Assembly: GCA_937958695.1 (NCBI GenBank)
Contig: CALGNK010000011.1
Span: forward strand, 82,694 to 146,693
Source: an uncultured bacterium
Lineage (GTDB): Bacteria > DUMJ01
Direction: 5' to 3'
DNA length: 64,000 nt
How positions within the stretch are numbered: the stretch's first letter is position 1; the number at the start of each line of letters is the position of its first letter. The notes under the pieces were generated by a model. The model was not told the origin of the DNA. It worked only from the letters and a program-made list of their open reading frames with translations, and did no database searches. Of this stretch, positions 4,867 to 39,743 are shown one piece after another. Position numbers and translations under genes: made by a program.

Positions 4867-4868
4867 CT

Positions 4869-8051: not shown

Positions 8052-8059
8052 ATTTTTAA

Positions 8060-9397: not shown

Positions 9398-9509
9398 AAA
9401 CTTTTCACCCTCCTAAATCTCATTTATAACTTATTCCCCTTAAGATACCTCATCAAGATTAAAGGTAACTATAAAGATAAAACAAAAGATTTCTATCCCT
9501 TAAAAGCTC

Positions 9510-10373: not shown

Positions 10374-10377
10374 AAAA

Positions 10378-11286
10378 TCACCCTCTCAATTCTCCTTCAT
10401 AGAATACCCAGTATTTAGAACCTCTAAATTGAAGTATAGTAAGAACTAGTACAAACATAAACAGTGCCCAAGCAAGAGAAGATGCATACCCCATTCTAAA
10501 GAATTCAAAGCCATTCTGATATAGATACAAAACCATAAATAAAGTACTATTTGCTGGTCCACCTCTTGTCATAACATATGCCTGAGTAAATACTTGAAAA
10601 GAAGAGATAACCTGCATTATAGTAACAAAAAATATAGATGGAGAAAGCATAGGAAGGGTTATATGCCAAAACTTATGCCAAAGCCCAGCACCATCAAGTT
10701 CTGCTGCCTCATAGAGCTGTTCTGGAATCCCCTGTAAACCAGCGAGTAATATAATCATCATTCCCCCTATACCCCAAAGGCTCATAAGTATTAGAGATGG
10801 CTTAGACAAAGCAGGATCGTAAATCCATCTTATTCGAGAATGGATTCCTATATATCCTAAAAGTGCATTAGCAAGTCCGAAATCGGGATTAAAAATCCAC
10901 AACCACATAATACTGCTAGCCACCGCAGGTGTAATAGAAGGGATATAATAGATGGTTCTATAAACTGATATCCCTCTTAACTTTAGATTCATAGCAAGGG
11001 CTACGCAAAGGGCAGCAATTACTCTTAAAGGGACACCAATCACTGTATAATAGATCGTATTATAGAGAGAAACCCAGAACAAATTGTCTTTAAACATAAA
11101 TCTATAATTTTCAAATCCTATCCACCTTGGAGCCTGAAGAAGAGACCATTCCATAAAACTTATCACTATTGACGCAATCATTGGGCCTGCAGTAAAGGCT
11201 ATAAAACCTATAATCCACGGTGCCAACATTATATAGGCATTTATAGCCTCTCTCCGTTTATATCCTGGTAATTTACTCATATCCAA
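10378..11286 (-). CDS. ABC sugar permease, MalF type
   Basis: A 302-residue inner-membrane permease and the first gene of the minus-strand operon. The N-terminus YKRREAINAYIMLAPWIIGF is typical of MalF/UgpA-like permeases without the extra E. coli domain. The EAA loop reads EAAELDGAGLWHKFWHITLP. The ATG lies about 45 bases downstream of the -10 and palindrome. It pairs with the product of 9510-10373. Confidence 0.9.
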   Translation of the reverse strand: MDMSKLPGYKRREAINAYIMLAPWIIGFIAFTAGPMIASIVISFMEWSLLQAPRWIGFENYRFMFKDNLFWVSLYNTIYYTVIGVPLRVIAALCVALAMNLKLRGISVYRTIYYIPSITPAVASSIMWLWIFNPDFGLANALLGYIGIHSRIRWIYDPALSKPSLILMSLWGIGGMMIILLAGLQGIPEQLYEAAELDGAGLWHKFWHITLPMLSPSIFFVTIMQVISSFQVFTQAYVMTRGGPANSTLFMVLYLYQNGFEFFRMGYASSLAWALFMFVLVLTILQFRGSKYWVFYEGELRG

Positions 11287-19406: not shown

Positions 19407-19435
19407 TTGACATTAGAATAAAATAGTATTATAAT
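19407..19435 (+). promoter_or_regulatory. Consensus promoter of the ROK gene
   Basis: TTGACA (19407-19412), a 17-base spacer and TATAAT (19430-19435) form a perfect sigma-70/sigma-A promoter, divergent to the riboswitch promoter. It may drive the whole downstream cluster, since only 97 bases separate the ROK gene and the binding-protein gene. Confidence 0.85.
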
Positions 19436-19473: not shown

Positions 19474-20649
19474 TTGAACAGAGAGTCTTCTATACTGTTA
19501 GTCTTAGATATAATAAGAAGATATGGGCCCATTAATAGATATGAGATTGCAAAAAGGACATTATTCAGTCCTGCAACTATAACAAGCATAACCGATAGAC
19601 TTATTAAGGCAGAGTTTATCTCTGAGATCCCAGCAAACATCTCAAAAAGGGGTAGAAAACCTATTAATCTTACTCTGAGTAATGGAAATCACTTATCTGT
19701 AGGGATAGAGATAGATTCTCATCATATAACCGGAGTAGTTATAGGATTAAACGGGGATATTATAAAGAGCAAGAAAAGCCATATAGACAAATATGCCCCA
19801 GAGGATATATTTGGTGAAATAATTAGACTGTATAACTCTCTCATCGATAATTTAGATAAGAATAAGATATTAGGTCTTGGAATTGGAATTCCCGGACTCA
19901 TAGACCCAAAGAATAAAAAAGTAATCTTCTCAGCAGTTTTAGGTTGGAAAGATGTATATGTAAATAAATTTTTTGAGAATCTAAATATACCATTCTTTAT
20001 AGAAGACAATGTAAGGGCGATAACTTTGGGAGAACTCTGGTATGGCGCAGGTATAGGGAAAGACAATCTTCTATGCATAGGAGCAGGAAGAGGTATAAGT
20101 GCTGGAATAGTCATTAATGGGTCTATATATTCAGGTCCTAACGACCGCGCTGGAGAGTTTGGACATATGGTAATAGGAAAAGATGGGAAACAATGTAGAT
20201 GCGGCAATTATGGATGTCTCGAAGCATACGTATCTACAGAGGTGATAATAGAAAAGGTTCTTGAGGGAGTAAAGAATAATGCATATACAGGATTTGATCC
20301 AAAAGACGAAAGCAGGTTGCTTGAAGAGATAATCAATACTGGTAAGAGCGGAGATAAGTTTATACTTAACATATTTGAAGAGGTGGGTGAATATCTAGGT
20401 ATAGGCATTGCCAATCTAATAAACTTCTTTAACCCAGAATTAATTATCTTAGCTGACGAGTTAGCCAAGGCAGAAGAACTTATATTGGAACCACTAAAAA
20501 GAAATATAAGGCTTCATGCGCTTCCTCCCATTCCAAACATAGTCATCTCAAGATTAGGATCTCTTGCCTGTGCTATAGGATCAGCCACCTTAGCAATAAA
20601 AGATTTACTCTACTCTAAATTAGATAGTTATATAGGAGGTGGTAGCTAA
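19474..20649 (+). CDS. ROK-family (NagC/XylR-type) regulator
   Basis: A 391-residue protein with an N-terminal winged HTH (INRYEIAKRTLFSPATITSI, about residues 20-40) and a C-terminal ROK sugar-kinase-like domain. The zinc motif reads CRCGNYGCLEAY, and the phosphate loop region GIPGLIDPKN and GAGRGISAGIV are present. ROK regulators sense sugars or sugar phosphates. The start is TTG; AAAGGAGGG lies 14 bases upstream, which is long, but no better in-frame start exists. It heads the large sugar cluster and is the likely regulator. Confidence 0.88.
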   Translation: MNRESSILLVLDIIRRYGPINRYEIAKRTLFSPATITSITDRLIKAEFISEIPANISKRGRKPINLTLSNGNHLSVGIEIDSHHITGVVIGLNGDIIKSKKSHIDKYAPEDIFGEIIRLYNSLIDNLDKNKILGLGIGIPGLIDPKNKKVIFSAVLGWKDVYVNKFFENLNIPFFIEDNVRAITLGELWYGAGIGKDNLLCIGAGRGISAGIVINGSIYSGPNDRAGEFGHMVIGKDGKQCRCGNYGCLEAYVSTEVIIEKVLEGVKNNAYTGFDPKDESRLLEEIINTGKSGDKFILNIFEEVGEYLGIGIANLINFFNPELIILADELAKAEELILEPLKRNIRLHALPPIPNIVISRLGSLACAIGSATLAIKDLLYSKLDSYIGGGS

Positions 20650-20746
20650 GGGTAATTTAGATAATTTACAAAAATTTTCTTATAAGCTTGGTGAGGCTTA
20701 AAAGGGTAGGTTTAAGTTATTAAAAATAGGAAAGGAAGTGAAGATT

Positions 20747-22651
20747 ATGAGAAGATTTTTAAGCATTTTAATTAGTGTAATGTTGATTTCAATGCTAGTA
20801 GTGGGAATTATGCCTAATGCTTTTACTCAGAAAAAGTACAATGAAGCTCCAGAATTAGCAGAGTTAGTAAAACAAGGTAAGCTTCCACCTGTAGAACAGA
20901 GACTACCAAAAGAACCTCTAGTTCTTACACCACTAGAAGAGGTTGGGCAATATGGAGGAACTCTACACCTATTACATCTACCTCAGTATCCTAGTCTTTG
21001 GAGAGGCAGGATGAGCGAACCATTTCTTATTTATTCTACTCCATATCTGGACAAAATTCTTCCTAATGTAGCTAAAGCTTGGAAAATAACTAAGGAAGGT
21101 AGAGTATTTACTTTCTTCTTAAGAGAAGGAATGAAATGGTCGGATGGTCAACCATTTACTGCTGATAATATAATATTCTGGTATGAAGATATTATTAAAA
21201 ATGACGAATTATCCCCAAGTAAACCAGCATATCTAACTTCTAGGGGAAAGTTAGCTAAGGTTAGAAAGCTTGGAACCTATGTAGTAGAGTTCTCCTTCGA
21301 TGAACCCTCTGGAATATTTTTAGATGCTATGTGTACAACTTTACCTGCCTCTCCTTCTCATTACTTAAAACAGTTCCATCCAAAGTATACTTCTACAGAC
21401 AAGCTAAAGGAATTAATGAAAAAAGAAGGAGTTGATAACTGGAGAAGTCTTTTTTATACCAAGGCTAGTAACCTTCTTAATCCGGAATGCCCTACTATAG
21501 GTGCATTTGTATCTGTAACTTCAATGAATGAGCCAGTATTTATATCTAAGAGAAATCCTTATTATTGGAAGGTAGATACTGCTGGGAATCAACTACCATA
21601 CATTGATAAAATCGAAGATGCTGTTATTCAGAATCCAGAGACATATCTTCTTAAAACCTTAGCAGGAGAGGTTGATTATACAGCTATTGCATTTGTAGGA
21701 GGTTTACCAAGTTATTCAGTAATTATAGAAAATAGAACGAAGGGCAATTATAGATTAATCCCATATATCTGGCCCCCCAACAACCTTGGTACAATCCTCT
21801 TTAACTATGGTCACAAAGATACTGTAATACGTAGTTTATTTAACGAAAAACGTTTCCGTATCGCTCTATCTATAGCTATAAATAGAGACGAGATAAACAA
21901 ACTCCTTTTCAAAGGACAAGCTATTCCTTCTCAACCAACTTTTGCACCAGGGCCACCTTATTATGGAGATTTCCCTCTCTCTAAGAATTATACACAGTTC
22001 GACACTGCAAAGGCAAATCAGCTTTTAGATGAAATAGGGTTAACAAAACGCGACAAAGATGGATTTAGATTAAGACCCGACGGAAAAGAATTGACATTAA
22101 CACTACTAGTTACTACAGGTTGGCCATTTGAAGCCGTGGAGATAGCAGAGCTTTGTAGGAAGTATTGGGCAAATATAGGGATAAAAGTAGTAAATAAACC
22201 CATAGCCGAAGAACAATTGTTTGGATTACTAGAAGAAGATAATTACGATATGGCTATGAGAGCATTAATGTTAGGAGGATGCACTCAACCTGTACTTACT
22301 AGAGGAGAACTTTGGCCTGCTTCTAGATTTTGGACAGTTTCACCGGCTTGGGCTAAGTACCTATATTCTGATGGGAAGGAAGGAACAGAACCTCCGCAGG
22401 ATGTTAAGAAACTAAAACAGCTCTTTGACCAGGCATCAAAGGAGGCAAATACTAGAAAGAGAAATAACATAATAGTACAGGCTCTTAAGTTAAACCTAGA
22501 AAATATCTGGGCTATTGGAATTGTTAATGAGCCTGAAATAGCAAAGCAGTATATATTCAAGAACTATATAAGAAACGTTAATAGACCTAATGAACCAATA
22601 CCTGCAGAACTATTCTCTATTCCGCCCTCCCAATTCTTTATAAAGAAGTGA
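20747..22651 (+). CDS. ABC solute-binding protein, family 5 (peptide/oligosaccharide)
   Basis: A binding protein of about 634 residues and DppA/OppA class. A signal peptide (MRRFLSILISVMLISMLVVG) precedes the mature start QKKYNEAPELAELVKQGKLP. The family segment WSDGQPFTADNIIFWYEDI is clear. The ATG at 20747 fits the ribosome site better than an in-frame GTG nine bases earlier. It is closely similar to the protein at 37768-39687. In organisms of this kind such proteins often bind oligosaccharides rather than peptides. Its permeases follow; no ATPase genes are nearby. Confidence 0.9.
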   Translation: MRRFLSILISVMLISMLVVGIMPNAFTQKKYNEAPELAELVKQGKLPPVEQRLPKEPLVLTPLEEVGQYGGTLHLLHLPQYPSLWRGRMSEPFLIYSTPYLDKILPNVAKAWKITKEGRVFTFFLREGMKWSDGQPFTADNIIFWYEDIIKNDELSPSKPAYLTSRGKLAKVRKLGTYVVEFSFDEPSGIFLDAMCTTLPASPSHYLKQFHPKYTSTDKLKELMKKEGVDNWRSLFYTKASNLLNPECPTIGAFVSVTSMNEPVFISKRNPYYWKVDTAGNQLPYIDKIEDAVIQNPETYLLKTLAGEVDYTAIAFVGGLPSYSVIIENRTKGNYRLIPYIWPPNNLGTILFNYGHKDTVIRSLFNEKRFRIALSIAINRDEINKLLFKGQAIPSQPTFAPGPPYYGDFPLSKNYTQFDTAKANQLLDEIGLTKRDKDGFRLRPDGKELTLTLLVTTGWPFEAVEIAELCRKYWANIGIKVVNKPIAEEQLFGLLEEDNYDMAMRALMLGGCTQPVLTRGELWPASRFWTVSPAWAKYLYSDGKEGTEPPQDVKKLKQLFDQASKEANTRKRNNIIVQALKLNLENIWAIGIVNEPEIAKQYIFKNYIRNVNRPNEPIPAELFSIPPSQFFIKK

Positions 22652-22663
22652 AATTTTCAGTTA

Positions 22664-22697
22664 TTCCGGATAAGGCTAAGCTTAGCCTTATCCGGAA
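22664..22697 (+). promoter_or_regulatory. 34-bp perfect palindrome between binding protein and permease genes
   Basis: TTCCGGATAAGGCTAAG is followed at once by its exact reverse complement, a 17-bp stem with almost no loop, 12 bases past the stop codon. No U-run follows. It could protect the 3' end of the binding-protein message and reduce read-through, giving more binding protein than permease. Confidence 0.85.
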
Positions 22698-22741
22698 ACA
22701 TCTTATTATAAGAGAAGGATTTAGAGAGAAGGTGATATAAC

Positions 22742-23725
22742 TTGACAGATTTTTTAATAAGGAGAATAGTAATGATGTTCTTTACTCTAATTGGTATATC
22801 AATAGTATCTTTTATTATTATCCAAGCTCCTCCAGGAGACTATCTTTCTACATATATGGCAAGATTATCGGCAGCAGGTCTTAATATTGATCCGGCAGAG
22901 ATAGAAGCATTAAAAGAACGATACGGACTCGGTAAACCTATGTATCTTCAGTATATTAGGTGGGTAACAAATTTGCTCCATGGAGATTTAGGTTATTCTA
23001 TGCAGTGGGATGCAAGTGTAAAGATGATAATACTCCAGAGATTACCAGGTAGTTTTATCCTATCTCTATTCTCTTTTATATTCTCGTATCTTATTGCTAT
23101 CCCTATAGGGGTATTTAGTGCTACTCATCAGTATTCTTTCTGGGATTATATCTTCTCTTTTATTGGATTCTTAGGCATAAGCATCCCTTCTTTCTTTCTT
23201 GCTCTTATAGCTTTATGGCTTTATTTTATTGGCACTGGCAATGTAGCAGTAGGATTATTCTCTAAGGAGTTCCAAACAGCTTCTTGGAGTTTCGCAAAAT
23301 TTATAGATTTATTGGGTCATATATGGTTACCAGTCATCATAATAGGTCTAGGTGGAACATGTAGTATAATAAGGGTTGTAAGAAATAATCTTTTAGATGA
23401 GATCCAAAAACCTTACGTCATTACTGCACGTTCCAAAGGGCTTCCAGAAAGACGATTACTTTATAAATATCCATTTCGTATAGCAATTAATCCAGTTATA
23501 AGTACTGTAGGTTGGATGCTACCCAGTCTTGTAAGTGGAGAGCTTTTTGTTTCGTTAATTCTTAATATTCCAACACTTGGACCTGTATTTATAGATTCTC
23601 TAAGAAGCCAAGATATGTTTTTAGCAAGTAGTATCATTCTAATATTAAGTTCTCTTACTGTAATAGGAACCTTAATATCGGATATACTCTTAGTCTGGGT
23701 AGACCCAAGAATTAAATATATGTAG
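22742..23725 (+). CDS. ABC permease, DppB type
   Basis: A 327-residue inner-membrane permease with N-terminal LIRRIVMMFFTLIGISIVSF and the periplasmic PPGDYLSTY loop. The ATPase-contact segment is YVITARSKGLPERRLLYKYP. It starts at TTG with GAAGG nine to ten bases upstream. It pairs with the DppC-type product 11 bases downstream. Confidence 0.92.
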   Translation: MTDFLIRRIVMMFFTLIGISIVSFIIIQAPPGDYLSTYMARLSAAGLNIDPAEIEALKERYGLGKPMYLQYIRWVTNLLHGDLGYSMQWDASVKMIILQRLPGSFILSLFSFIFSYLIAIPIGVFSATHQYSFWDYIFSFIGFLGISIPSFFLALIALWLYFIGTGNVAVGLFSKEFQTASWSFAKFIDLLGHIWLPVIIIGLGGTCSIIRVVRNNLLDEIQKPYVITARSKGLPERRLLYKYPFRIAINPVISTVGWMLPSLVSGELFVSLILNIPTLGPVFIDSLRSQDMFLASSIILILSSLTVIGTLISDILLVWVDPRIKYM

Positions 23726-23736
23726 GAGGTTAATGG

Positions 23737-24870
23737 ATGTCTATAGAGGAGAACAAGGATAAATTGAAAGAAAATGAGGTTGAAGAAAAAATATTTACAG
23801 CCTCTCAATGGCAACTTGTCTGGTGGAAATTCCTTAGACATAAAGTAGCAGTAATATCTTTAGCTATCCTCTTAGTATTTTATCTCTCTGCTATTTTTGC
23901 CGAATTTATATCTCCTTATAATCCTAACAAAGAAGATACCCTCTATACCTATTGTCCCCCTACACGCATTTATTTCGTTGATGAATCAGGTAGATTCCAT
24001 CTTAGACCTTTTGTATATAAGCTAGACAAGATATTTGATCCTTTAACTCTCAACGAAATTTATACAGAAGATAGATCAAAAAAATATTTTATCAAATTTC
24101 TGTCCCGTGGTGAGCCATATAAGTTATTGGGATTTCTCTCCACAGATATCCATATCTTTGGTGTAGAAGGAGAAGGAAGACTTTTCCTTTTTGGAACAGA
24201 TAAGATGGGGAGAGACTTATTTTCACGTATTGTGTATGGCGCTCGGATCTCATTATCTATTGGGCTCGTAGGGATAGCTATCAGTCTCTTTTTAGGGATC
24301 CTTATTGGAGGAATCTCCGGTTATTTTGGGGGAACCACAGATATGGTAATCCAAAGGATCATAGAGTTTCTCAGTAGTATTCCTACCTTACCCTTATGGA
24401 TGGCATTAAGTGTAGCCTTACCCTCTCAATGGCCAGTTATTAAGGTTTATTTCGGTATTACTGTAATACTCTCGCTTTTAGGCTGGCCTGGATTAGCTCG
24501 TGTAACACGAGGGAAATTTATGTCTTTAAAGGAAGAAGATTTTGTTATGGCTGCAAAATTGTCTGGAGCTAGTGAGTTAAGAATAATCTTTGTACATCTT
24601 TTACCATCATTTTATAGCCATATAATCGCTTCTATAACACTGTCTATCCCTGGGATGATTTTAGGAGAGACATCTTTAAGTTTTTTAGGTTTAGGGTTAC
24701 AACCACCAGCTATAAGTTGGGGGGTCTTATTAAAAGACGCCCAATCAATTCACACATTAGCCAATTGTCCTTGGTTAATAATCCCTGGAGCATTTGTAGC
24801 TATCACAGTACTCTCATTTAATTTTTTAGGAGATGGATTACGCGATGCTGCGGATCCTTATTCTAAATAA
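23737..24870 (+). CDS. ABC permease, DppC type, with long periplasmic insert
   Basis: A 377-residue permease. After the first membrane span (about residues 40-62) comes an extra extracytoplasmic stretch of about 100 residues (YCPPTRIYFVDESGRFHLRP and on). This is typical of a thermophile-associated subgroup of DppC-like permeases. The FGTDKMGRDLFSR motif and the EAA-like loop EEDFVMAAKLSGASELRI follow. It is the intact counterpart of the broken gene at 1-893. Confidence 0.92.
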   Translation: MSIEENKDKLKENEVEEKIFTASQWQLVWWKFLRHKVAVISLAILLVFYLSAIFAEFISPYNPNKEDTLYTYCPPTRIYFVDESGRFHLRPFVYKLDKIFDPLTLNEIYTEDRSKKYFIKFLSRGEPYKLLGFLSTDIHIFGVEGEGRLFLFGTDKMGRDLFSRIVYGARISLSIGLVGIAISLFLGILIGGISGYFGGTTDMVIQRIIEFLSSIPTLPLWMALSVALPSQWPVIKVYFGITVILSLLGWPGLARVTRGKFMSLKEEDFVMAAKLSGASELRIIFVHLLPSFYSHIIASITLSIPGMILGETSLSFLGLGLQPPAISWGVLLKDAQSIHTLANCPWLIIPGAFVAITVLSFNFLGDGLRDAADPYSK

Positions 24871-24891
24871 GTAGAAAAGGAGGTTATCGAT

Positions 24892-25887
24892 ATGGAACAC
24901 TTTATAGTGTATAAAGATGAAAATTCTTATAGTGCCTTCCCTGACATAGAAAAACTTCCAAATGGAGAGATAATAGTGACATTTAGAGAAGCAGTTAGAA
25001 GAGAAATTGCCACTCATATAGATTCTACATCTAGAGCAGTAGCTATAAGGTCTAAAGATAATGGTAAAACATGGGAAGGAAAGATTATTGTTTACGACGA
25101 TGAGGATGGTATTCAGGATCCATCTATTAAAGCTTTATCTGATGGAAGTCTTATATGCAATTTCTTTAAGTGGAAGGTAATAAAACAAGAACCATTTAAT
25201 CATCAGATTTTAGGAACATTTATTGTTAGGTCTTATGATAGTGGATATACTTGGGAAAAAGAATTAACTAAGGTAGAAGTTCCAGATTTTAAATTAAGCG
25301 GAACATCCGATGCCATTTTAGAATTAAACGATGGGACACTCCTTATACCTATGTATGGAGCAAAGATAGGAGAAAGGCATAGAGCCTTTATCTTAAAATC
25401 AAAAGACAAAGGTTCAACCTGGACAGATTTTAGGACGGTAGCATTTGATCCTCTAGGAAATATGGATTTCCAAGAGCCAGCTTTAACAATGTTACCTTCT
25501 GGAAAGATTATATGCATGATGAGAGTTTATGGGGTAGAACAATATCTATGGCAATCAGAATCACTTGATGGAGGAAATACTTGGAGTATCCCTAAAAAAA
25601 CAGAGATCTGGGGATTTCCTGCCCATCTCTTGGTCCTTAAAGACGGAAGAATCTTATGTTCTTATGGATATCGTAGACCACCTTATGGGATAAGGGCTTG
25701 TATAAGTTATGATGAAGGAAAAACCTGGGATCTAAAGAATGAGATTATAATAAGAAGCGATGGATTACATGAAGATCTCGGTTATCCTAGTTCTATAGAG
25801 CTAAATACCGGAGAGATATTAACTGTATATTATTTTCATGATAGCGAAGAAACGGAATTTATAGCCAGTAGTATATATAAAATTTAA
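24892..25887 (+). CDS. BNR/Asp-box (sialidase-like) protein, cytoplasmic
   Basis: A 331-residue six-bladed-propeller protein of the exo-sialidase superfamily. At least five Asp-boxes (S-x-D-x-G-x-T-W) are visible: SKDNGKTW, SYDSGYTW, SKDKGSTW, SLDGGNTW and SYDEGKTW. There is no signal peptide, so it acts on imported substrate. The arginine triad of true sialidases cannot be confirmed by eye (ITVTFREAVRR near residue 27 is one candidate), so sialidase activity itself is uncertain; another glycoside hydrolase/lyase or isomerase role is possible. It follows the permeases by 21 bases. Confidence 0.8.
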   Translation: MEHFIVYKDENSYSAFPDIEKLPNGEIIVTFREAVRREIATHIDSTSRAVAIRSKDNGKTWEGKIIVYDDEDGIQDPSIKALSDGSLICNFFKWKVIKQEPFNHQILGTFIVRSYDSGYTWEKELTKVEVPDFKLSGTSDAILELNDGTLLIPMYGAKIGERHRAFILKSKDKGSTWTDFRTVAFDPLGNMDFQEPALTMLPSGKIICMMRVYGVEQYLWQSESLDGGNTWSIPKKTEIWGFPAHLLVLKDGRILCSYGYRRPPYGIRACISYDEGKTWDLKNEIIIRSDGLHEDLGYPSSIELNTGEILTVYYFHDSEETEFIASSIYKI

Positions 25888-25904
25888 GATTAATTGAGGG
25901 ATAT

Positions 25905-26981
25905 ATGGAACCTTTAGAAAGAATCATTAACAGTGTGAAGCATAAACGTTCTGATAGGTTACCTATTGACTACATTGCTACACCTGAAGCACATAATTCT
26001 TTGAAAAAACATCTCTCCATAGAGAGCGACGAAGAACTTTTGAGATATCTAGGAGTTGATATTAGAAGAGTTACAGGTAAGTACATAGGGCCAAAAGGAC
26101 TTATCCCATCAGCAGGAATAAATGCTAATCCTGGAACCGATATATTCGGTGTTGTATGGGCTCCTAAAAGACATAAATTTGGCTCATACAACGAAATCGT
26201 CTATTACCCACTGGCAGAAGCAAAAACAGTAAAGGAGATAAGAGAATACAATTGGCCTAGCATTGACTGGTTTGACTTTTCTCATCTAAAGAAAGAAATT
26301 GCTCAAATTAATAAAGATAAAAGGTACGCAGTTATGTTTTTTGCCGGTGGTTCTTTTGAGACCCCATGGTATATTCGTGGTTTAGAAAATTTCCTAATAG
26401 ATCTAGTAGAGCGTCCAGAGATAGCAGAGGCTATTATTTCACATGTAACAGATTTTTATTTGAAGCGTGCATTAAAGGCCATAGAGGAGTCCAATGGGCA
26501 AATTACAATTATTGGAAGCGGAGGAGACCTAGGAACACAAAAAGGGATGATGATTTCACCAGAACTATGGAGAAAATACATAAAGCCTTACAGCGCAAAA
26601 TTAATCCGCACATTTAAGGATATGGGTTTTATTACATTTTACCACTCCTGCGGTAGTATCATACCCATAATAGATGACCTTATAGAAATAGGACTTGATA
26701 TACTTGACCCTATCCAACCAAAGGCTAAGGGTATGGACCCAGAAAATCTAAAAAGGCAATTTGGAGATAAACTTGTTTTTCATGGCGGAATAGATGTACA
26801 AGAGCTGTTACCATTTGAGACCCCAGAAGAGATTTATAAAGAGACAGCAAGATTGATGGAGATACTAGGAAGTGATGGGGGATATATAGTTGCACCTGCT
26901 CATGCAATTCAGGGAGATACAACTCCAGAAAATATAATGGCAATATATAATACTGCAAAGGAATATTTACCTTGGAAATAA
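25905..26981 (+). CDS. Uroporphyrinogen decarboxylase-family protein (catabolic paralogue)
   Basis: A 358-residue URO-D fold protein. It has FYHSCGSIIPII and HGGIDVQELLPF, with the His/Cys pattern seen in the methyltransferase-like (MtaA/CmuA) branch. It is not HemE, because no haem genes are near and it sits in a sugar operon. URO-D paralogues of this kind recur in sugar and methoxy-compound clusters; their reaction is mostly undefined. Zinc-dependent methyl transfer to a corrinoid is one possibility. Confidence 0.8.
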   Translation: MEPLERIINSVKHKRSDRLPIDYIATPEAHNSLKKHLSIESDEELLRYLGVDIRRVTGKYIGPKGLIPSAGINANPGTDIFGVVWAPKRHKFGSYNEIVYYPLAEAKTVKEIREYNWPSIDWFDFSHLKKEIAQINKDKRYAVMFFAGGSFETPWYIRGLENFLIDLVERPEIAEAIISHVTDFYLKRALKAIEESNGQITIIGSGGDLGTQKGMMISPELWRKYIKPYSAKLIRTFKDMGFITFYHSCGSIIPIIDDLIEIGLDILDPIQPKAKGMDPENLKRQFGDKLVFHGGIDVQELLPFETPEEIYKETARLMEILGSDGGYIVAPAHAIQGDTTPENIMAIYNTAKEYLPWK

Positions 26982-26994
26982 ATAGAGGGAAATT

Positions 26995-27771
26995 ATGGGA
27001 ATACTTGAAAGATTTTCTCTTTTTGGAAAAGTAGCGATTGTTACTGGAGGAGCAGGCCTTTATGGGAAATTTATTGTTGAAGGTCTTGGAGAGGCTGGTG
27101 CATCTGTTTATATTGCATCTAGAAATATAGAAAGATCTGGGAAATTTGCAGAAGAGTTAAAAGAAAAAGGATATGAAGTAAAGGCGATAAAATTTGATCA
27201 GGCAAAAGAGGAAAGTATAAATGATCTAAAAGTAAAAATTATTGAAGAAAAAGGAAGGATAGATATACTTGTAAATAATGCTGTTCTAAGACCTATGAAG
27301 AGTTACTACGATGAGATAGAAAAATTTAGAACATCGATGGAAGTAAATGCAGTAGGGGTTTTTAATCTAACAAGAATTATCGGGGAGGTTATGAAGGAGC
27401 AACGGTACGGTTCAATAATAAATATATCTTCTATTCAAGGAATAGTAGGTCCCGACTTTACTTTATACGAAGGAACAGAAATGGATGTTCCTCCAGATTA
27501 TTTCTTCCATAAAAGTGGGCTTATAAATTTGACAAGATATTTTGCTGCAAGACTTGGTCCTTACAATATAAGGGTAAACTGCATAAGCCCAGGTGGATTA
27601 TATGCAGGGCAAAATGAAAGATTTGTTGAAAGATATAACAAAAGGACATTCCTTGGAAGAATGGCTAACGGAGAAGATATTAAAGGAGTAGTAATATTTT
27701 TGGCTTCAGACGCTTCAGCTTATATAACTGGAGCAAACATTGTTGTGGATGGAGGGTATACAGCAAAATGA
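26995..27771 (+). CDS. Short-chain dehydrogenase/reductase
   Basis: A 258-residue classical SDR. The cofactor loop is TGGAGLYG (residues 19-26), NNAV marks strand 4, the Ser of the catalytic tetrad is in NISSIQG, and the usual YxxxK is represented by a shifted FFHKSG. The C-terminal end ASAYITGANIVVDGGY is typical. The catalytic Tyr appears replaced: the segment reads DVPPDYFFHKSGL, with the Lys kept and His or Phe at the Tyr place unless DYFFHK is misaligned. The gene overlaps the next one by 4 bases. Confidence 0.85.
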   Translation: MGILERFSLFGKVAIVTGGAGLYGKFIVEGLGEAGASVYIASRNIERSGKFAEELKEKGYEVKAIKFDQAKEESINDLKVKIIEEKGRIDILVNNAVLRPMKSYYDEIEKFRTSMEVNAVGVFNLTRIIGEVMKEQRYGSIINISSIQGIVGPDFTLYEGTEMDVPPDYFFHKSGLINLTRYFAARLGPYNIRVNCISPGGLYAGQNERFVERYNKRTFLGRMANGEDIKGVVIFLASDASAYITGANIVVDGGYTAK

Positions 27772-28772
27772 AACATATACTAATAGTTGGTGGAGGAGGT
27801 ATAGGAGAAAGGCATATACGCTGTTTTCTAGCTACTGGCAGAGTTAAGATATCTGTATGCGATTCTAGAAAAGAAAGATTAGAAGAATTGAAAAGTCATT
27901 ACAAAATAGAAGAGACATTCTTATCCTTTAATGATATCCCTTTAGGAAAATTTGATGGAGTATTAATAGCCACACCTGCCAATTTACATGTACCTATGGC
28001 TATTCGCTGTATAGAATATGATACCCCTTGTCTAATAGAGAAACCTCTCTCAGTAGATTTAGTTGATGTAGATAGACTTATAGAATTAGTAAATAGGAAA
28101 AGGATTATAGCAGGAGTAGCATATGTACGTCGAAGTCTTCCTTCTTATAGAAGATTAAAAGAGTTAGTAGAAGGAGGTATTATTGGGGTATTAAAGATGG
28201 GAAGGCTCAATATGTCTCAGGAATTCCCTAAATATAGGCCTGATTATCGTAATATATACTATGCTAAAGAAGAGACTGGGGGAGGATGCATATTAGATGC
28301 TGCTACACATGCTATAAATCTTGCCCAATACTACTGGGGAGAGATAGAAGACTCGGTAGGATTTTACGACCATCTAGAACTCGAAGGGGTTGAAGTTGAA
28401 GATAGCTCGATCATTATTCTTAGATTTAAAAACAGGTCTTTAGTAGATATCTTTGTGAACCAATTTCAGAAACCTAATATAACTGAGACTGAACTTATAG
28501 GTAATGAAGGGAATTTAAGATGCACAGTTAATAGAGGATCTCATAAGATAACATTCTGTAATAGTGATGAGAATAAATGGGAAGAAATAGCATCTTATAA
28601 TTTTACTAGTGACGACCCATACATCTTTCAAGCCAATGAATTTCTTGATGCAGTAGATGGAAAAAGTAAGCTTTCAACTAGCATAGAAGAAGCCAAGGAA
28701 GCACTGATAGTAGCTCTAAATGTAAAATCTTTTCAAAAAGAGAGAAAGGTGAATACATATGCAAAAAAGTAG
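27768..28772 (+). CDS. Gfo/Idh/MocA-family oxidoreductase A
   Basis: A 334-residue NAD(P)-dependent sugar dehydrogenase-like protein. It has a Rossmann start (IVGGGGIGERHIR), LIEKPLS (the EKP lysine motif) and GGGCILDAATHAI with the catalytic Asp/His pair. Family members oxidise or isomerise sugars, inositols and glycosides. Its ATG overlaps the SDR stop (ATGA). It is one of three non-identical Gfo/Idh/MocA proteins in the cluster. Confidence 0.88.
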   Translation: MKHILIVGGGGIGERHIRCFLATGRVKISVCDSRKERLEELKSHYKIEETFLSFNDIPLGKFDGVLIATPANLHVPMAIRCIEYDTPCLIEKPLSVDLVDVDRLIELVNRKRIIAGVAYVRRSLPSYRRLKELVEGGIIGVLKMGRLNMSQEFPKYRPDYRNIYYAKEETGGGCILDAATHAINLAQYYWGEIEDSVGFYDHLELEGVEVEDSSIIILRFKNRSLVDIFVNQFQKPNITETELIGNEGNLRCTVNRGSHKITFCNSDENKWEEIASYNFTSDDPYIFQANEFLDAVDGKSKLSTSIEEAKEALIVALNVKSFQKERKVNTYAKK

Positions 28773-29550
28773 AGTATTAGAGAAATTAAGAAGGGGAGAA
28801 CCTGTTCTCTGTACTAAAGCTAACTTTAAAGACCCTGCTATTATAGAATTGATTGGGCTTATTGGATTTGATTGTATCTGGATATGTCAAGAACATCTTT
28901 GGTCAGATCAGGAGACGCTTTATAGTATGATTACCTCTGCTCGATTGACTAGTATGGATAGTATGGTTCGTATTGGGAAAAGCGGATATACTTCAGCCAT
29001 AAAACCCCTAGAAATGGGAGCAAAGGGAATAATGGTCCCTCACATAAGGTCCTTAGAAGAGGCTAAATTTTGGATAGAAACTACTAGGTTTTTCCCTATT
29101 GGGAGGAGAGGATTAGATGGGGTTAATGCTGATGCTGACTGGGGATTAATGAACTTAAGTGACTACTTGGAATTTTCTAATAGAGAAACATTCTTAGCCT
29201 TTCAAATCGAAGACCCAGAAGTAATTCCTTACATAGAGGATATAGCAAAATTACCAGGGTTTGATATCTTCTTTGTAGGAATAGGAGATCTAAGTCAAGC
29301 ACTAGGATTTCCTGGAGAATTAGATAGAGCTGAAATTTGGGAGGTGTTAAAAAGGGTAGGAAATGTAGCAAAGAAATATGGGAAATTTGTAGGAGCACCA
29401 GGAATTAATACAGAAAAGACAAAGAGGTTGTTAGATTTAGGGTACTTATTTATAACTAACGGTGCTGATATCATATTCTTGAGGGATTCATTTTTAAAAT
29501 TAAAAAGGGAATATGAAGGTATTGGTTTTAGCTTTGGAGGGATAAGATGA
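28759..29550 (+). CDS. HpcH/HpaI-type aldolase (2-keto-3-deoxy sugar-acid aldolase family)
   Basis: A 263-residue class-II pyruvate aldolase related to 2-dehydro-3-deoxyglucarate aldolase GarL and HpcH. The base His lies in CQEHLWSD. The metal ligands are Glu in FQIEDPE and Asp in GIGDLSQALGF. It cleaves 2-keto-3-deoxy acids to pyruvate plus an aldehyde, which fixes a likely end-step of the pathway. It overlaps the previous gene by 14 bases and the next by 4. Confidence 0.88.
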   Translation: MQKSRVLEKLRRGEPVLCTKANFKDPAIIELIGLIGFDCIWICQEHLWSDQETLYSMITSARLTSMDSMVRIGKSGYTSAIKPLEMGAKGIMVPHIRSLEEAKFWIETTRFFPIGRRGLDGVNADADWGLMNLSDYLEFSNRETFLAFQIEDPEVIPYIEDIAKLPGFDIFFVGIGDLSQALGFPGELDRAEIWEVLKRVGNVAKKYGKFVGAPGINTEKTKRLLDLGYLFITNGADIIFLRDSFLKLKREYEGIGFSFGGIR

Positions 29551-30467
29551 TTAAGATCGCTATGTTGGGAAGGAGCGAGGGAAATGGCCATCCCTACTCC
29601 TGGAGTGCAATCATAAATGGTGGTTATAATGAGGAGATGATGAAAAAATGTCCCTTTCCCATCATCTATGAGTATCTTTCAAAACAGCCTAGAGAAAATC
29701 TAGGGATTCATGGAGCAAAAGTGACACATATATGGGCAGAAGATAAAGAGGAGGCTCAGCGTATAGCGGAAACTTCTCTTATAGAAAATGTTGTAGATAG
29801 ACCTGAAAATGTTATAGGGAAAGTAGATGCTGTAATTATAGGAGAAGATGTTGGTTCAAGACATCTCTCGTTAGCTTTACCTTTCATCAAAAGAGACATT
29901 CCAATATTTATAGATAAACCTCTTACTGACAATGAAAGTGACCTAAAAGAGTTTATAAGATTCTTTGAGGAAGAGAAACCAATTCTTTCCTCTTCTAGTT
30001 ATAGATATGCAAAAGAGATAGAAGAACTAGACAGAAAAGAATTAGGAAATATCTTATTTGTTGATGGGCTTATAAATAAGAGCTGGGAAAAGTATGGGGT
30101 TCACTGTATAGAAGGATTATGTCAATTAATGGGGTATGGGATAGAAGAGGTGAATAATTTAGGGGATGAGAAAAATAACATAGTTTATTTAAGATATAAG
30201 GACGGGAGACAAGCTATAATAAACGTAATTTATCCTGCTCGACTCTCCAAATACGATATAGTTGGAGAAAATAACTCCAAAAGCATAATAATATCTGATA
30301 GCTTTTATATGTTTAAAAAACAGCTACAAATATTTATCGATTTTATAAAAACTGGTAAAAGGCCTTATCCTTTTGAAGAAACTATAGAAATTACTAAGGT
30401 TATTATTGCAGGAATAAGGTCAAGGGAGAGAAAAGAGCCAGTTAAGATTAAGGATATTCTAAAATAG
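29547..30467 (+). CDS. Gfo/Idh/MocA-like oxidoreductase B (divergent)
   Basis: A 306-residue divergent member. It begins IAMLGRSEGNGHPYSWSAII instead of a normal GxGxxG. It has a long early insert rich in charged residues and FIDKPLTDNE in place of EKP. The C-terminal domain is short. NAD binding is doubtful from the altered glycine loop; it may have a structural or altered catalytic role. Tight coupling (4-base overlap) ties it to the aldolase. Confidence 0.75.
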   Translation: MIKIAMLGRSEGNGHPYSWSAIINGGYNEEMMKKCPFPIIYEYLSKQPRENLGIHGAKVTHIWAEDKEEAQRIAETSLIENVVDRPENVIGKVDAVIIGEDVGSRHLSLALPFIKRDIPIFIDKPLTDNESDLKEFIRFFEEEKPILSSSSYRYAKEIEELDRKELGNILFVDGLINKSWEKYGVHCIEGLCQLMGYGIEEVNNLGDEKNNIVYLRYKDGRQAIINVIYPARLSKYDIVGENNSKSIIISDSFYMFKKQLQIFIDFIKTGKRPYPFEETIEITKVIIAGIRSRERKEPVKIKDILK

Positions 30468-30476
30468 GAGGTCTTT

Positions 30477-31523
30477 ATGGTTAATTGGGGAGTTATTGGA
30501 TGTGGAGGGATTGCATCCAGAAGGACAATCCCTGAGGGGCTTACAAAGGCAAAGAATGCTAGATTGATTTCAGTTATGGATATAGATAAGGATAAGGCAA
30601 AGGAGGTTGGAGAGAGGTTTGGATTAGAGTATTCTACAGATATAGAAGATATACTTAATGATAGTCGTATTCAGGCTGTGTATATAGCAACTCCCGTATA
30701 TCTCCACAAGGAACAGGTCATAAAATCAGCTATATCTGGTAAGCATATCTTGTGTGAAAAGCCTTTGGCTTTAAACTCGAAAGATGCAGAGATTGCTATA
30801 GATATCTGCAAGAAAAATAATGTAAAGCTTGGCGTTGGTTATATGATGAGATTCCATTCTTTGCATAAGAAGGCTAGAGAGATGATAAAGAATGGAGAAC
30901 TAGGAGAGATTGTTTTTGCTAGGGCACAACTCTCCTGTTGGTATCCACCTATTCAAGGGGCTTGGAGGCAGGATCCTACACTAGGAGGTGGAGGATCACT
31001 AATAGATATGGGAAGCCACTGCCTTGACCTTCTAGAGTATATACTAGATACAGAGATAGAAACAGTATCCTGCTTTGCCGATAATGTAATACATAACTAT
31101 AAATCAGAAGATTCAAGTGTTGTAATGGTAAGATTCAAGAATAAAGCCCATGGAGTTATAGACAGTTACTTCAATATTCCAGACAACTCAAGCAAAAATA
31201 GACTAGAAATTTATGGGACAAAGGGCAGTCTCCTAGCTGAAGGAACAATAGGCCAATCTTCTTATGGAGAGATGGTAGCATTCTTAGAGAAGGACTCAAA
31301 AGGTTATGATGCCTCTCAGATAAGAGAGATGGAAGTAGGGATGAAGATAGAGGCTCCATTTGTAAACATCTATCAGGCAGAGATAGAAGCATTCTCATCA
31401 GCTATAGAAGAGGATAAGGATCCTCCAGTTTCCGGAGAGATAGGATTATGGAGTTTAAGGGTTATAGAGGCATGTTATGAGTCAAGTAAAAATAAGGTAC
31501 AGATAACATTAAGAAGGGAGTGA
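30477..31523 (+). CDS. Gfo/Idh/MocA-family oxidoreductase C
   Basis: A 348-residue canonical member with WGVIGCGGIASR, LCEKPLALN and the catalytic segment GGGGSLIDMGSHCLDLLEY. It is preceded by AGGAGG. It overlaps the aminotransferase gene region by 4 bases to an upstream GTG. A sugar-3-oxidation or reduction role beside a DegT aminotransferase is plausible (compare the NtdABC logic), but here in a breakdown setting. Confidence 0.88.
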   Translation: MVNWGVIGCGGIASRRTIPEGLTKAKNARLISVMDIDKDKAKEVGERFGLEYSTDIEDILNDSRIQAVYIATPVYLHKEQVIKSAISGKHILCEKPLALNSKDAEIAIDICKKNNVKLGVGYMMRFHSLHKKAREMIKNGELGEIVFARAQLSCWYPPIQGAWRQDPTLGGGGSLIDMGSHCLDLLEYILDTEIETVSCFADNVIHNYKSEDSSVVMVRFKNKAHGVIDSYFNIPDNSSKNRLEIYGTKGSLLAEGTIGQSSYGEMVAFLEKDSKGYDASQIREMEVGMKIEAPFVNIYQAEIEAFSSAIEEDKDPPVSGEIGLWSLRVIEACYESSKNKVQITLRRE

Positions 31524-31528
31524 ATAGT

Positions 31529-32806
31529 ATGAATAATCAGAAATTAGCAGTAGAAGGTGGAGAGCCAGTCATTAAAGAGAAGCTTCCAACATGGCCCTGG
31601 TTCGACGATGAAACTATACAGGCAGTAGTAGAAGTTTTAAAAAGTGGTAGGGTGAACTATTGGACTGGGCCAAAAGGGATGGAATTTGAAGAGAAATTTG
31701 CAAGGTGGTGCGGAACAAAATATGCAATCTCCACCTCAAGCGGAACTAGCGCCCTTCATACCGCTCTTGGTGCATTAAATATTGGTCCTGGAGATGAAGT
31801 GATAACAGTTCCTTATACGTTTATTGCCTCATCTTTCTGTATAGTTCAGGCAGGAGCTATACCTGTATTTGCCGATGTAAATAAGGAGGACCATTGCATA
31901 GATCCTGACGATATAGAGAGAAAGATTACGGAAAGGACAAGGGCAATAATACCAGTCCATCTCTATGGAATAGTATGTGATATGGATAAGATTATGGCTA
32001 TAGCTAGGAAATATAACCTCTATGTTATAGAGGATGCAGCAGAAGCCCATGGAGCAGAGTACAAAGGTAGGAAGGTAGGAACTATAGGAGATGTAGGATG
32101 CTTTAGTTTCTGTCAAAATAAGACATTCACTACTGGTGGAGAAGGAGGTATGGTAACAACTGATAATGAAGATGTAGCTTGGGAAGCCCGCTCTTTTAGA
32201 GACCATGGTTATGATGTGAGAAAAAGAATGAGTTTACTAGAGATGGAACAGGCTCTACCTTATATACATAGAAGGGTTGGATTTAACTATCGAATGACAG
32301 AGATGCAGTCAGTTATAGGGATAAAGGCTTTAGAAAAGATTGACACATGGAATCTGCCTAGAAGGAGGAGAAATGCTCAGATCTTAACAGAGATGTTAAA
32401 AGACTGTCCACAGATATTGACATTACCACTAGATACACCAGAGAGGAAGAATGGATACTACGTATACCCTATAGTACTAAACCTTGACGCCTTAAGATGT
32501 GACAAGAAGACATTCTTAGATGCAGTAATAGCAGAAGGGGTATATGCATGGAGAGAGTTCTGGCCACAATCATATAAAGAAGAGGCTTATATAAACCATA
32601 ATGGTTTTGGAAGATTTAAATTCCCATTCAGAAGTAAAGAATATACAAATCCACAGTCGGTTCAGTATGATAAAGTCTTCTGTCCTAACTGTGCCTGGCT
32701 AGAAGAAAGGACATTTGTTGTTCACATATGGCCCACATTACAAGATGAACATATGTATCTCATTGGGGAAGCAATCCTTAAGGTAGCAAAGGCCTATGCA
32801 AAATAG
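31529..32806 (+). CDS. DegT/DnrJ/EryC1-type PLP sugar aminotransferase
   Basis: A 425-residue type-I-fold aminotransferase. TSSGTSALHTAL binds phosphate, EDAAEAHGA carries the PLP Asp, and the Schiff-base Lys is in SFCQNKTFTTGGEGG. An insert near the C-terminus holds FCPNC, an unusual CxxC in this family. ATG 31529 with GGGAG is preferred over GTG 31520. It would add or remove an amino group on a keto-sugar. In a breakdown operon, deamination of an amino sugar with 2-oxoglutarate is one reading. Confidence 0.88.
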   Translation: MNNQKLAVEGGEPVIKEKLPTWPWFDDETIQAVVEVLKSGRVNYWTGPKGMEFEEKFARWCGTKYAISTSSGTSALHTALGALNIGPGDEVITVPYTFIASSFCIVQAGAIPVFADVNKEDHCIDPDDIERKITERTRAIIPVHLYGIVCDMDKIMAIARKYNLYVIEDAAEAHGAEYKGRKVGTIGDVGCFSFCQNKTFTTGGEGGMVTTDNEDVAWEARSFRDHGYDVRKRMSLLEMEQALPYIHRRVGFNYRMTEMQSVIGIKALEKIDTWNLPRRRRNAQILTEMLKDCPQILTLPLDTPERKNGYYVYPIVLNLDALRCDKKTFLDAVIAEGVYAWREFWPQSYKEEAYINHNGFGRFKFPFRSKEYTNPQSVQYDKVFCPNCAWLEERTFVVHIWPTLQDEHMYLIGEAILKVAKAYAK

Positions 32807-34139
32807 ATTATTAGTAGGAGCATATGAGGTAGATATAACTCCTCCTCTTGGGGTAGACCTAGCAGGGTATTTCAATGTAAGAAAGGCTGATGATATCTTA
32901 GATAATCTTTATGCAAAGACAGTTGTATTAAAGACAGAGACAACTGAGGTAGCAATTACGTCTTGTGACCTCTGTGTAATACCAAGGGAGATTGTCTTGA
33001 GGATAAGAGAATTGGCATCGGTATGGAGTGGTATTCCAAAAGATAATATTATGATATCCGCTACCCATACCCATACAGGACCTGTAACTACTGGCCTTCT
33101 AGCTGGAGAGATAGATCCAGCCTATATAGATGTTATGGTAAGAAGAATAGCCTCTGGAATTGCTATAGCAAGGAGAAATCTTAGAGAAGCCATTATAAAG
33201 ATAGGAAGAGGAGAGGAAAGTTCTATAATATTTAACCGCAGGTATATTATGAATGATGGCTCAGTTATCACAAACCCAGGTAAACTAAATCCCAATATAG
33301 TAAAACCTGCAGGTCCTGTAGATCCAGAGTTACTCCTAATACTTATAGAGGAAAGGCTGGGAAATCCAATAGCTCTTATAACAAACTATACTAATCACGT
33401 TGATACCATTGGTGGGACAGGAATTTCTAGTGATTATCCGGGTGTAATAGCAAAATACATTAAAGAACATTTTGGAGATATACCAAGTCTTTTCCTAAAT
33501 GGTGCAGAAGGAGATATAAACCATGTAGATGTAAAAGACCCAACACCCCAAGTAGGATACGAAGAGGCTAAAAGGATTGGCAAGATATTGGTAAAAGAGA
33601 TAATAAGAACCCTAGATAGAATAGAACCTTTAGAGGCAGATCTAAAGATAAATAGTTCCATTATAAAGATTCCAATAAGGAAGCCATCAAAAGAAGAGAT
33701 CGAAAAAGCAAAAGAACTCTTAAGTAGACATATAGAGTCTCATTCTAAGGAACTTACTGCGTTTGACTTGGCAAAGGGAAGCATGGAGGTAGAAAGAGCT
33801 TATGCACAAGAGGTTTTACTACTATCACAACTTGATAAAGACTTTGAAGATTTAGAACTTCAGGTAATAGCCTTAGGTAATTTAGTCTTAGTTGGAATTG
33901 CTGGGGAGCCATTTGTGGAGCTTGGATTAAAGATAAAAAGAAACAGTCCTTTTCGTTACACCGGTGTAGTATCTCTTGCTAATGGATATTCAGGCTATAT
34001 ACCAACAGAGAGGGCGTTCGATGAGGGGGGTTATGAAACTAGGCTTGCTAGAAGTAGTAAATTAGATAAAAGGGCAGAAAATCTAATCATTGAGGAGGTA
34101 CTAAGACTAATAAAAGAACAACATAAACAATATAGATAA
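32796..34139 (+). CDS. Neutral-ceramidase N-domain-like hydrolase (PF04734 type), cytoplasmic
   Basis: A 447-residue protein matching the alkaline/neutral ceramidase N-terminal domain. It starts LLVGAYEVDITPPLGVDLAG, has the zinc segment SATHTHTGP and the NGAEGDINHV motif. It lacks a signal peptide and the C-terminal ceramidase domain. Bacterial short forms are often found in sugar clusters and may hydrolyse amide bonds other than ceramide. Deacylation of an N-acyl amino sugar is an attractive inference. It overlaps the aminotransferase gene by 11 bases and ends the cluster. Confidence 0.82.
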   Translation: MQNRLLVGAYEVDITPPLGVDLAGYFNVRKADDILDNLYAKTVVLKTETTEVAITSCDLCVIPREIVLRIRELASVWSGIPKDNIMISATHTHTGPVTTGLLAGEIDPAYIDVMVRRIASGIAIARRNLREAIIKIGRGEESSIIFNRRYIMNDGSVITNPGKLNPNIVKPAGPVDPELLLILIEERLGNPIALITNYTNHVDTIGGTGISSDYPGVIAKYIKEHFGDIPSLFLNGAEGDINHVDVKDPTPQVGYEEAKRIGKILVKEIIRTLDRIEPLEADLKINSSIIKIPIRKPSKEEIEKAKELLSRHIESHSKELTAFDLAKGSMEVERAYAQEVLLLSQLDKDFEDLELQVIALGNLVLVGIAGEPFVELGLKIKRNSPFRYTGVVSLANGYSGYIPTERAFDEGGYETRLARSSKLDKRAENLIIEEVLRLIKEQHKQYR

Positions 34140-39687: not shown

Positions 39688-39699
39688 TCTTCTATTAGA

Positions 39700-39721
39700 T
39701 GGGGGGATATATATCCCCCCA
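39700..39721 (+). promoter_or_regulatory. Perfect 22-bp palindrome after the binding-protein gene
   Basis: TGGGGGGATAT followed directly by ATATCCCCCCA forms an 11-bp stem, 12 bases past the stop codon. The downstream gene starts 22 bases later. It occupies the same position as the hairpins after the other three binding-protein genes. Confidence 0.85.
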
Positions 39722-39743
39722 AATATATCTAAAAGGAGAAATT

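Follow-up and report, generated by a model that had tools for sequence, protein, structure and literature searches.

Gene content and organization of the locus

The DNA analyzed here is a 64,000-nucleotide stretch, hereafter the window, from an uncultured bacterium of the DUMJ01 lineage (contig CALGNK010000011.1 of assembly GCA_937958695.1, positions 82,694 to 146,693). Between positions 20738 and 34139 it carries a set of 12 genes, encoding a family-5 solute-binding protein, two ABC permeases, a BNR propeller protein (BNR), a URO-D superfamily protein (URO-D), a short-chain dehydrogenase (SDR), three Gfo/Idh/MocA proteins (GfoA, GfoB, and GfoC), an HpcH/HpaI aldolase (HpcH), a DegT-family aminotransferase (DegT), and a short neutral-ceramidase-like amidohydrolase (Cer) (Table 1). 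The initial annotation had described 12 same-strand genes of these families joined by 4- to 14-base overlaps or short gaps, and the open reading frames (ORFs), families, and junctions agree with that description: all 12 genes lie on the plus strand and every ORF is intact. Specifically, the URO-D and SDR genes are 13 bases apart, the next three junctions overlap by 4 (SDR/GfoA), 14 (GfoA/HpcH), and 4 (HpcH/GfoB) bases, and a 9-base gap (GfoB/GfoC) is followed by overlaps of 4 (GfoC/DegT) and 11 (DegT/Cer) bases.

The binding-protein gene may start at GTG 20738 or at ATG 20747. The 90 bases that follow it are the longest gap within the set and contain a 15-pair hairpin, the sole marked internal structure and a stem of the sort that typically serves processing or attenuation 3' of a binding-protein gene. 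No ABC ATPase gene is present within the 12-gene set, and 15 oligo_HPY matches occur elsewhere in the genome. Because a gene for a ROK-family regulator lies 88 bases upstream, together with a promoter that agrees with the consensus at all 12 positions, the unit probably comprises 13 genes, and a single transcript from ROK through Cer is likely on this layout. A ROK orthologue with 78-80% identity occupies the same position in both congeners examined (G001 and G002). A recent foreign origin of the middle section was rejected, as GC and GC3 are unremarkable there.

Table 1. Features of the predicted transcription unit (positions are those of the window)
Feature	Position	Strand	Remarks
Sigma-70-type promoter, TTGACA-17-TATAAT	19407..19435	+	12/12 consensus; sole such match in 19 kb
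ROK-family regulator, N-terminal MarR-type HTH + ROK domain	19474..20649	+	391 aa, TTG start; PF00480 1.2e-50, PF01047 3.5e-8
Family-5 solute-binding protein	20738..22651	+	PF00496 3.5e-64; hydrophobic N-terminus
15-pair hairpin, near-perfect	22664..22697	+	between binding-protein and permease genes; folding z-score -4.8
ABC permease, DppB type	22742..23725	+	PF00528/PF19300
ABC permease, DppC type	23737..24870	+	PF00528/PF12911
BNR propeller	24892..25887	+	331 aa; PF13088 2.7e-23, PF02012 1.2e-6; no signal-like N-terminus
URO-D superfamily protein, MtaA-like	25905..26981	+	PF01208 8e-27; HSCG at 247, APAH at 330
SDR	26995..27771	+	PF13561; YFFHK active site at 169
GfoA, Gfo/Idh/MocA oxidoreductase	27768..28772	+	PF01408, PF22725; GGGGIG and EKP motifs
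HpcH/HpaI class II aldolase	28759..29550	+	PF03328 2.4e-14
GfoB, divergent Gfo/Idh/MocA protein	29547..30467	+	PF01408 3.2e-9; without GxGxxG, DKP at 123
GfoC, Gfo/Idh/MocA oxidoreductase	30477..31523	+	PF01408/PF02894/PF22725
DegT-family aminotransferase	31520..32806	+	PF01041 3.5e-104; pyridoxal phosphate (PLP) lysine K201
Cer, short neutral-ceramidase-like amidohydrolase	32796..34139	+	PF04734 8e-13; 447 aa

A DegT-GfoC core, often with Cer, recurs across many phyla

Relatives of DegT were sought in 84,980 species genomes, and the neighboring loci were read by tblastn and homology-ranked ORFs. Relatives were found on at least 469 contigs, of which the best 80 were kept; these share 57-78% identity over almost the whole length. 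The phyla represented include Aerophobetes, Latescibacterota, Omnitrophota, Planctomycetota, Verrucomicrobiota, Acidobacteria, Hydrogenedentota, Armatimonadetes, and Bacillota, among others. The orthologues in the two congeners and in three other sampled genomes are 96, 96, 81, 77, and 66% identical. Of the 52 loci with enough flank, 41 have a GfoC orthologue (identity of 40% or more) no farther than ~1.6 kb from DegT, compared with none of 19 DegT paralogue loci. Among the 80 DegT loci, 26 include a Cer-like gene and 10 a ROK gene. The family of Cer, PF04734, has only two copies in the 2.1-Mb genome of the window, and yet each of the six genomes examined has one such gene adjoining its DegT orthologue. 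Given this contrast between orthologue and paralogue loci and the placement of a rare family beside DegT, these gene neighborhoods indicate that the DegT-GfoC(-Cer) association is a real functional association, and that DegT and GfoC, often with Cer, are a conserved core across many phyla.

Further PF04734 genes were seen close to paralogous DegT genes (G017:C106, G017:C9, and G029:C147), which suggests that the pairing of an amidohydrolase with an aminotransferase may extend beyond this DegT orthologous group.

The best curated models for DegT are PseC (265 bits; cut-off, 423.5) and LegC (228 bits; cut-off, 420), both missed, and the PLP-binding lysine is invariant across orthologues and paralogues. 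The solved structure nearest to GfoC is 1,5-anhydrofructose reductase (2.8e-39), a likeness to keto-sugar reductases, and among curated models inositol 2-dehydrogenase gives the highest score for both GfoC (168.7 bits) and GfoA (104.7 bits), below its cut-off of 355. The predicted model of Cer (pLDDT, 76.7) matches neutral ceramidase (4wgk/2zws; E about 1e-22, TM about 0.7), and H91/H93, H201, E371, and Y401/Y413 are invariant in six homologues by sequence alignment, in a model that has low-confidence loops. These residues are candidates for the zinc ligands (His, His, Glu, and Tyr) of the ceramidase site. Cer therefore resembles neutral ceramidase in its predicted fold and perhaps in its conserved His/Glu/Tyr set, but it is much shorter (447 aa versus 630-690 aa), scores 24.7 bits against the curated neutral-ceramidase equivalog (cut-off, 1200), and has no signal-like N-terminus by sequence check. 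The fold predicted for Cer and its N-terminus are thus compatible with the ceramidase-like N-deacylase without a signal peptide that had been proposed earlier, and a sugar amide would be a likelier substrate than a lipid.

Partners of the core point to N-acetylated amino sugars

In a scan of 91 proteins that share an operon with the DegT core in other genomes, the recurring families were URO-D (7), DHDPS (4), xylose-isomerase-like proteins (4), GH109 C-terminal domains (3), amino-acid permeases (3), the sialate-esterase family SASA (2), PIG-L (2), and others, with transporter families among them, these counts being without a random-locus comparison. In one locus (L086), a GH20 gene sits between DegT and Cer, and in another (L059), GH20C and DUF6259 genes adjoin the core. 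A gene resembling glucosamine-6-phosphate (GlcN6P) deaminase, all 12 PDB matches of which are that enzyme, was found in five DegT-core loci, and L062 encodes glutamate dehydrogenase beside the core. In the genome of the window itself, a GlcN6P-deaminase-like gene adjoins a PIG-L deacetylase gene on contig C13 (L191:9417-11060), and the same pair stands next to the DegT core in L088. Because the partners include GH20, GH109-type, NagB-like, PIG-L, SASA, and glutamate dehydrogenase genes, they point to N-acetylated amino sugars as the probable substrate class. The amino-sugar idea of the initial annotation thereby gains a catabolic context from the partners of the core in other genomes, which extends neither to the order of steps nor to the substrate that had been suggested.

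The DUF6259 family is also represented within the window, where a downstream unit (37768-42886) encodes a family-5 binding protein, a DUF6259 protein, and a NamZ exo-beta-N-acetylmuramidase. Since the DUF6259 gene in L059 adjoins GH20C and the DegT-GfoC-Cer core, this family may act on amino-sugar glycans.

The closest known route of this kind is the conversion of N-acetylglucosamine to fructose-6-phosphate by NagA and NagB. In both cases an N-acyl group and then an amine would be removed from an N-acetylhexosamine, ROK and GH20 genes occur in the wider context, and a nagA equivalog is present in the genus (G000, G001, and G002). Here, in contrast, a ceramidase-fold amidohydrolase, a PLP-dependent aminotransferase, and a reductase would take the place of NagA and NagB. 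No nagB equivalog scored over the cut-off in the window genome or the two congeners (best, 61.4 bits versus 236.9), which leaves room for another route of amine handling.

The match of GfoC and GfoA to inositol 2-dehydrogenase raises the alternative that the cluster breaks down an aminocyclitol such as scyllo-inosamine or a rhizopine-like compound, with DegT deaminating the ring, the Gfo proteins acting as inositol dehydrogenases, and URO-D removing a methyl group. The DegT profile also matches scyllo-inosose aminotransferases in the PDB, and O-methyl inosamines exist, which counts for this explanation. However, the set has no IolE/IolD/IolB-type genes, Cer would be left without a role, and the GH20, NagB-like, and PIG-L partners suit sugars better; we consider aminocyclitol breakdown highly improbable.

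Exchangeable modules around the core

SDR and GfoB form a second recurring unit, which may or may not include GfoA. GfoB was found in 16 of 386 sampled genomes, and in 8 of the 10 strong matches outside this genome, an SDR homologue lies within ~2 kb; in one of the remaining two it is ~6 kb off, and in the other there is none on the 6-kb contig. The pair co-occurs with the DegT core in the window and in L052, L062, L075, and L181. The best NCBIfam models for SDR are PRK09186 and PRK08213, both below cut-off (PRK09186, 196.3 versus 255 bits), and with 132.7 bits it falls short of the 350 required by the PtmA equivalog. In two loci, L184 and L186, more distant homologues of the pair (33-43% identity overall: 38-43% and 33-36%) stand amid LegB, LegC, NeuB, and NeuC family genes that score above or near their curated cut-offs, and the Plesiomonas shigelloides legionaminate region encodes PtmA and PtmF (PMC4481668). 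From gene content, we infer that SDR and GfoB may correspond to PtmA and PtmF. The two loci therefore link the pair to nonulosonate chemistry, and it appears tied to amino-sugar and nonulosonate chemistry together, yet the SDR of the window remains below the PtmA cut-off. The cluster shares with the PtmA/PtmF segment of legionaminic acid synthesis an SDR gene adjoining that of a divergent Gfo/Idh/MocA protein, with homologues in legionaminate-type loci, but unlike that segment it lacks LegB, NeuB, NeuC, and a cytidylyltransferase and has an importer and a regulator.

Pairs of paralogous ~145-aa proteins with invariant cysteines (L062:4595-5563, L052:4999-5927, L042:10467-11314, and L182:12150-13020) recur either next to SDR-GfoB or in the operon as it stands in the congeners; the genome of the window has none. 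They matched no Pfam family, and an identity as ATC hydrolase was dropped for lack of Pfam support.

The aldolase position is variable. The curated models nearest to HpcH are GarL (103 bits; cut-off, 406.75) and HpaI (97.9 bits; cut-off, 368.8), neither reached. Its metal ligands E151 and D177, the carboxylate-binding R71, and the catalytic H46 align with those of 4tv5, 7et8, and 1dxe and are also kept in L057 and L180, and a Cys replaces the usual Asp of the D-G-E-H motif. The two congeners have ROK, GfoC, DegT, and Cer in the same positions as the window, around a different middle section, which encodes a DapA-family aldolase and a BNR protein unlike that of the window, along with a binding protein and two small paralogues. 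The same exchange of HpcH for a DapA-family aldolase is seen in a second genus, between L180 (G164) and L178 (G304), where the SDR and GfoB proteins are 91% and 85% identical despite the swap. Seven of nine DapA-family partners best match N-acetylneuraminate lyase, below the cut-off (top, 259.5 bits versus 281), and that of the congeners is best scored as dapA. Because HpcH and DapA-family aldolases alternate in this slot and the catalytic residues of HpcH are kept, a pyruvate-type lyase step is likely. The final HpcH-type retro-aldol cleavage envisaged in the initial annotation is thus favored by the retained metal and arginine residues, but not as the cleavage of a 2-keto-3-deoxy acid made by the pathway: no dehydratase is encoded in the cluster, and therefore such an acid would either arrive preformed or the aldolase would use another 2-keto acid. 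The differing middle section of the congeners likewise speaks against one fixed pathway.

BNR has the Asp-box repeats of its fold, and its nearest PDB chain is 5hx0 (3.6e-45), which is uncharacterized. At the position of the sialidase FRIP motif it reads SAFPDIEKL; the FRIP arginine is also absent in 5hx0 and in the other cluster BNRs. Membership in the GH33 sialidases was rejected because the N-terminal FRIP-type arginine of the arginine triad is missing, and for the same reason, together with the uncharacterized nearest structure, the earlier assignment of BNR as an intracellular glycosidase is left unsupported. URO-D scores best against PRK06252 (72.6 bits; cut-off, 244). The zinc motif of MtaA-type methyltransferases is H-x-C ... 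C, of which the window URO-D has the HxC but a His for the third ligand, and the G029 (Aerophobetes) homologue shows the same HSCG/SPAH pattern. In that genome the URO-D homologue, which shares 63% identity with the window URO-D, is encoded downstream of a BNR gene and separated from it by a phosphoesterase-like gene, and for this reason BNR and URO-D seem to belong together as a unit. The window genome has 25 URO-D superfamily genes and one PF02607 corrinoid-protein gene (contig C15), and most URO-D genes would therefore lack a dedicated corrinoid partner. A complete in-cluster corrinoid demethylase is unsupported, since no corrinoid partner is encoded in the cluster.

The neighborhood comparison thus showed co-occurrence as modules, namely DegT-GfoC (often with Cer), SDR-GfoB, and BNR-URO-D, with the exchangeable pyruvate-type aldolase as a fourth. 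Because the same combinations recur in unrelated genomes, the gene association is beyond chance, and the operon is, to judge from these genomes, a mosaic of modules recurring in other phyla. An alternative is that there is no single pathway, and that independent amino-sugar, redox, and methyl-transfer modules sit behind one regulator, with the importer serving some of them. The exchange of the middle section in the congeners while both ends are kept fits such an arrangement, as does G029, where BNR-URO-D lies on another contig than the SDR-GfoB-Cer-DegT cluster. Nevertheless, the enzyme genes overlap tightly in the window, and the DegT core stands repeatedly with SDR-GfoB in the four loci listed above, so that we regard a mosaic without a common pathway as unlikely.

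Proposed pathway and competing explanations

We interpret the unit as a ROK-regulated catabolic operon that would import and degrade a glycan piece containing an N-acylated amino sugar, a reading to which we assign a probability of about 45%. In this scheme, the core would act as follows: (i) Cer, or the PIG-L deacetylases beside related cores, would hydrolyze the N-acyl group; (ii) DegT would transfer the amine thus exposed on the ring to a 2-oxo acid such as 2-oxoglutarate, giving a keto sugar, and glutamate dehydrogenase, encoded in one such operon (L062), would recycle the glutamate; and (iii) GfoC would reduce the ketone to a hydroxyl. The net change would be from C-NHAc to C-OH, by which an otherwise unusable amino sugar could enter ordinary metabolism. 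SDR, GfoA, and GfoB may oxidize or reduce other carbons of the sugar, and HpcH would cut the carbon chain. BNR could open or bind the incoming oligosaccharide, and demethylation is one possible role among others for URO-D. Amide hydrolysis, transamination to a ketone, and reduction to an alcohol make chemical sense as a series, and with a subsequent aldol cleavage they would be the most likely chemistry.

The catabolic direction of the core would follow from the ROK regulator, the importer, and the hydrolase partners. Pairs of the NtdA/NtdC and WbpB/WbpE type consist of a biosynthetic Gfo dehydrogenase and a DegT aminotransferase that interconvert a ring C-OH and C-NH2 via a ketone. A Gfo/Idh/MocA and DegT pair is found here too, but its company of amidohydrolase, importer, and aldolase suggests that it runs in reverse. 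The alternative, that the cluster builds or tailors a surface amino sugar, draws on the fact that surface-sugar synthesis is the setting in which DegT and PtmA/PtmF-like genes are most familiar. It is at odds with the ROK regulator and binding-protein importer, with the absence of a nucleotidyl- or glycosyltransferase from the set, with the glycoside hydrolase and deacetylase genes that adjoin the core in other genomes, and with a genome whose NeuB-domain match is weak (36.7 bits). We therefore hold biosynthesis to be rather improbable.

A more specific catabolic alternative is that the substrate is a nonulosonic acid of the legionaminic or pseudaminic type, which BNR would release and the aldolase would split into pyruvate and a 6-deoxy diaminohexose, while Cer, DegT, and GfoC reverse the LegC/PseC step. 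The SDR-GfoB homologues beside LegB, LegC, NeuB, and NeuC in two loci, PtmA and PtmF in the P. shigelloides legionaminate region (PMC4481668), the lyase-like scores of seven of nine alternative aldolases, the PseC and LegC models as the best for DegT, and the SASA esterases beside the core are all in keeping with it, and a preformed 3-deoxy-2-keto acid would account for the missing dehydratase. However, no model was matched at cut-off and the congeners' aldolase is best scored as dapA, BNR lacks the FRIP arginine of sialidases, and the lyase is missing from most DegT loci. Moreover, PtmA and PtmF are placed early in CMP-legionaminate synthesis, in the GDP-sugar segment, and need not have the nonulosonate itself as a substrate. 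The comparison with sialic acid (nan) operons, including YjhC/NanOx, is similarly divided: a sialidase-superfamily propeller, a ROK protein, and Gfo/Idh/MocA proteins are shared, and related operons carry N-acetylneuraminate-lyase-like aldolases, whereas nanE, a nanK kinase, and a genuine nanA are all absent from the cluster, its BNR is without FRIP, and GfoC is closer to 1,5-anhydrofructose reductase than to YjhC. Nonulosonate catabolism is an unlikely explanation of the cluster. Its extension, by which the DegT-GfoC-Cer core, a lyase-like or HpcH aldolase, and the PtmA/PtmF-like pair together would mark nonulosonate catabolism in deep-branching and PVC-group heterotrophs recycling dead bacterial surface glycans, is slightly less likely still.

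Several observations weigh against the amino-sugar catabolic operon itself. No enzyme of the set reaches the cut-off of the curated functional model closest to it, and URO-D and BNR have no assigned step in the scheme. Neither the SDR-GfoA-HpcH-GfoB part nor the permeases are present in the congeners, so the full set is not obligatory; many of the 80 DegT loci have no nearby amino-sugar gene, and the partner counts have no random-locus baseline. Finally, transamination and NAD-linked dehydrogenation can run in either direction, and the core could equally well serve to make an amino sugar. Taken together, the view of the cluster as a variant of amino-sugar catabolism assembled from exchangeable modules is partly supported by these comparisons.

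Neighboring cluster and implications

Closer to the start of the window, positions 1360-11286 carry another sugar-acid-like catabolic cluster. To judge from the ORF translations, it combines a sugar ABC importer and a GntR regulator with two RraA-like proteins, an aldehyde dehydrogenase, and proteins resembling 6-phosphogluconate dehydrogenase, iron alcohol dehydrogenase, and lactate/malate dehydrogenase.

No description of a pathway with the 12-gene set, and no pathway assignment for the three-enzyme core, was found in the open-access literature searched, subscription journals being outside its scope. The description of the cluster as undescribed-looking therefore holds for the pathway but not for its parts, which recur elsewhere as modules. 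Uncultured bacteria of Planctomycetota, Verrucomicrobiota, Omnitrophota, Latescibacterota, Aerophobetes, and other phyla carry many DegT, Gfo/Idh/MocA, URO-D, and ceramidase-like genes of no assigned role, and several such genes are joined here in recurring units with a testable chemical logic. The finding to pursue is this recurrent core and not the individual cluster. If the core does remove amides from rare amino sugars, this would account for one step by which bacterial cell-surface material is recycled and would give functions to hundreds of unassigned genes.

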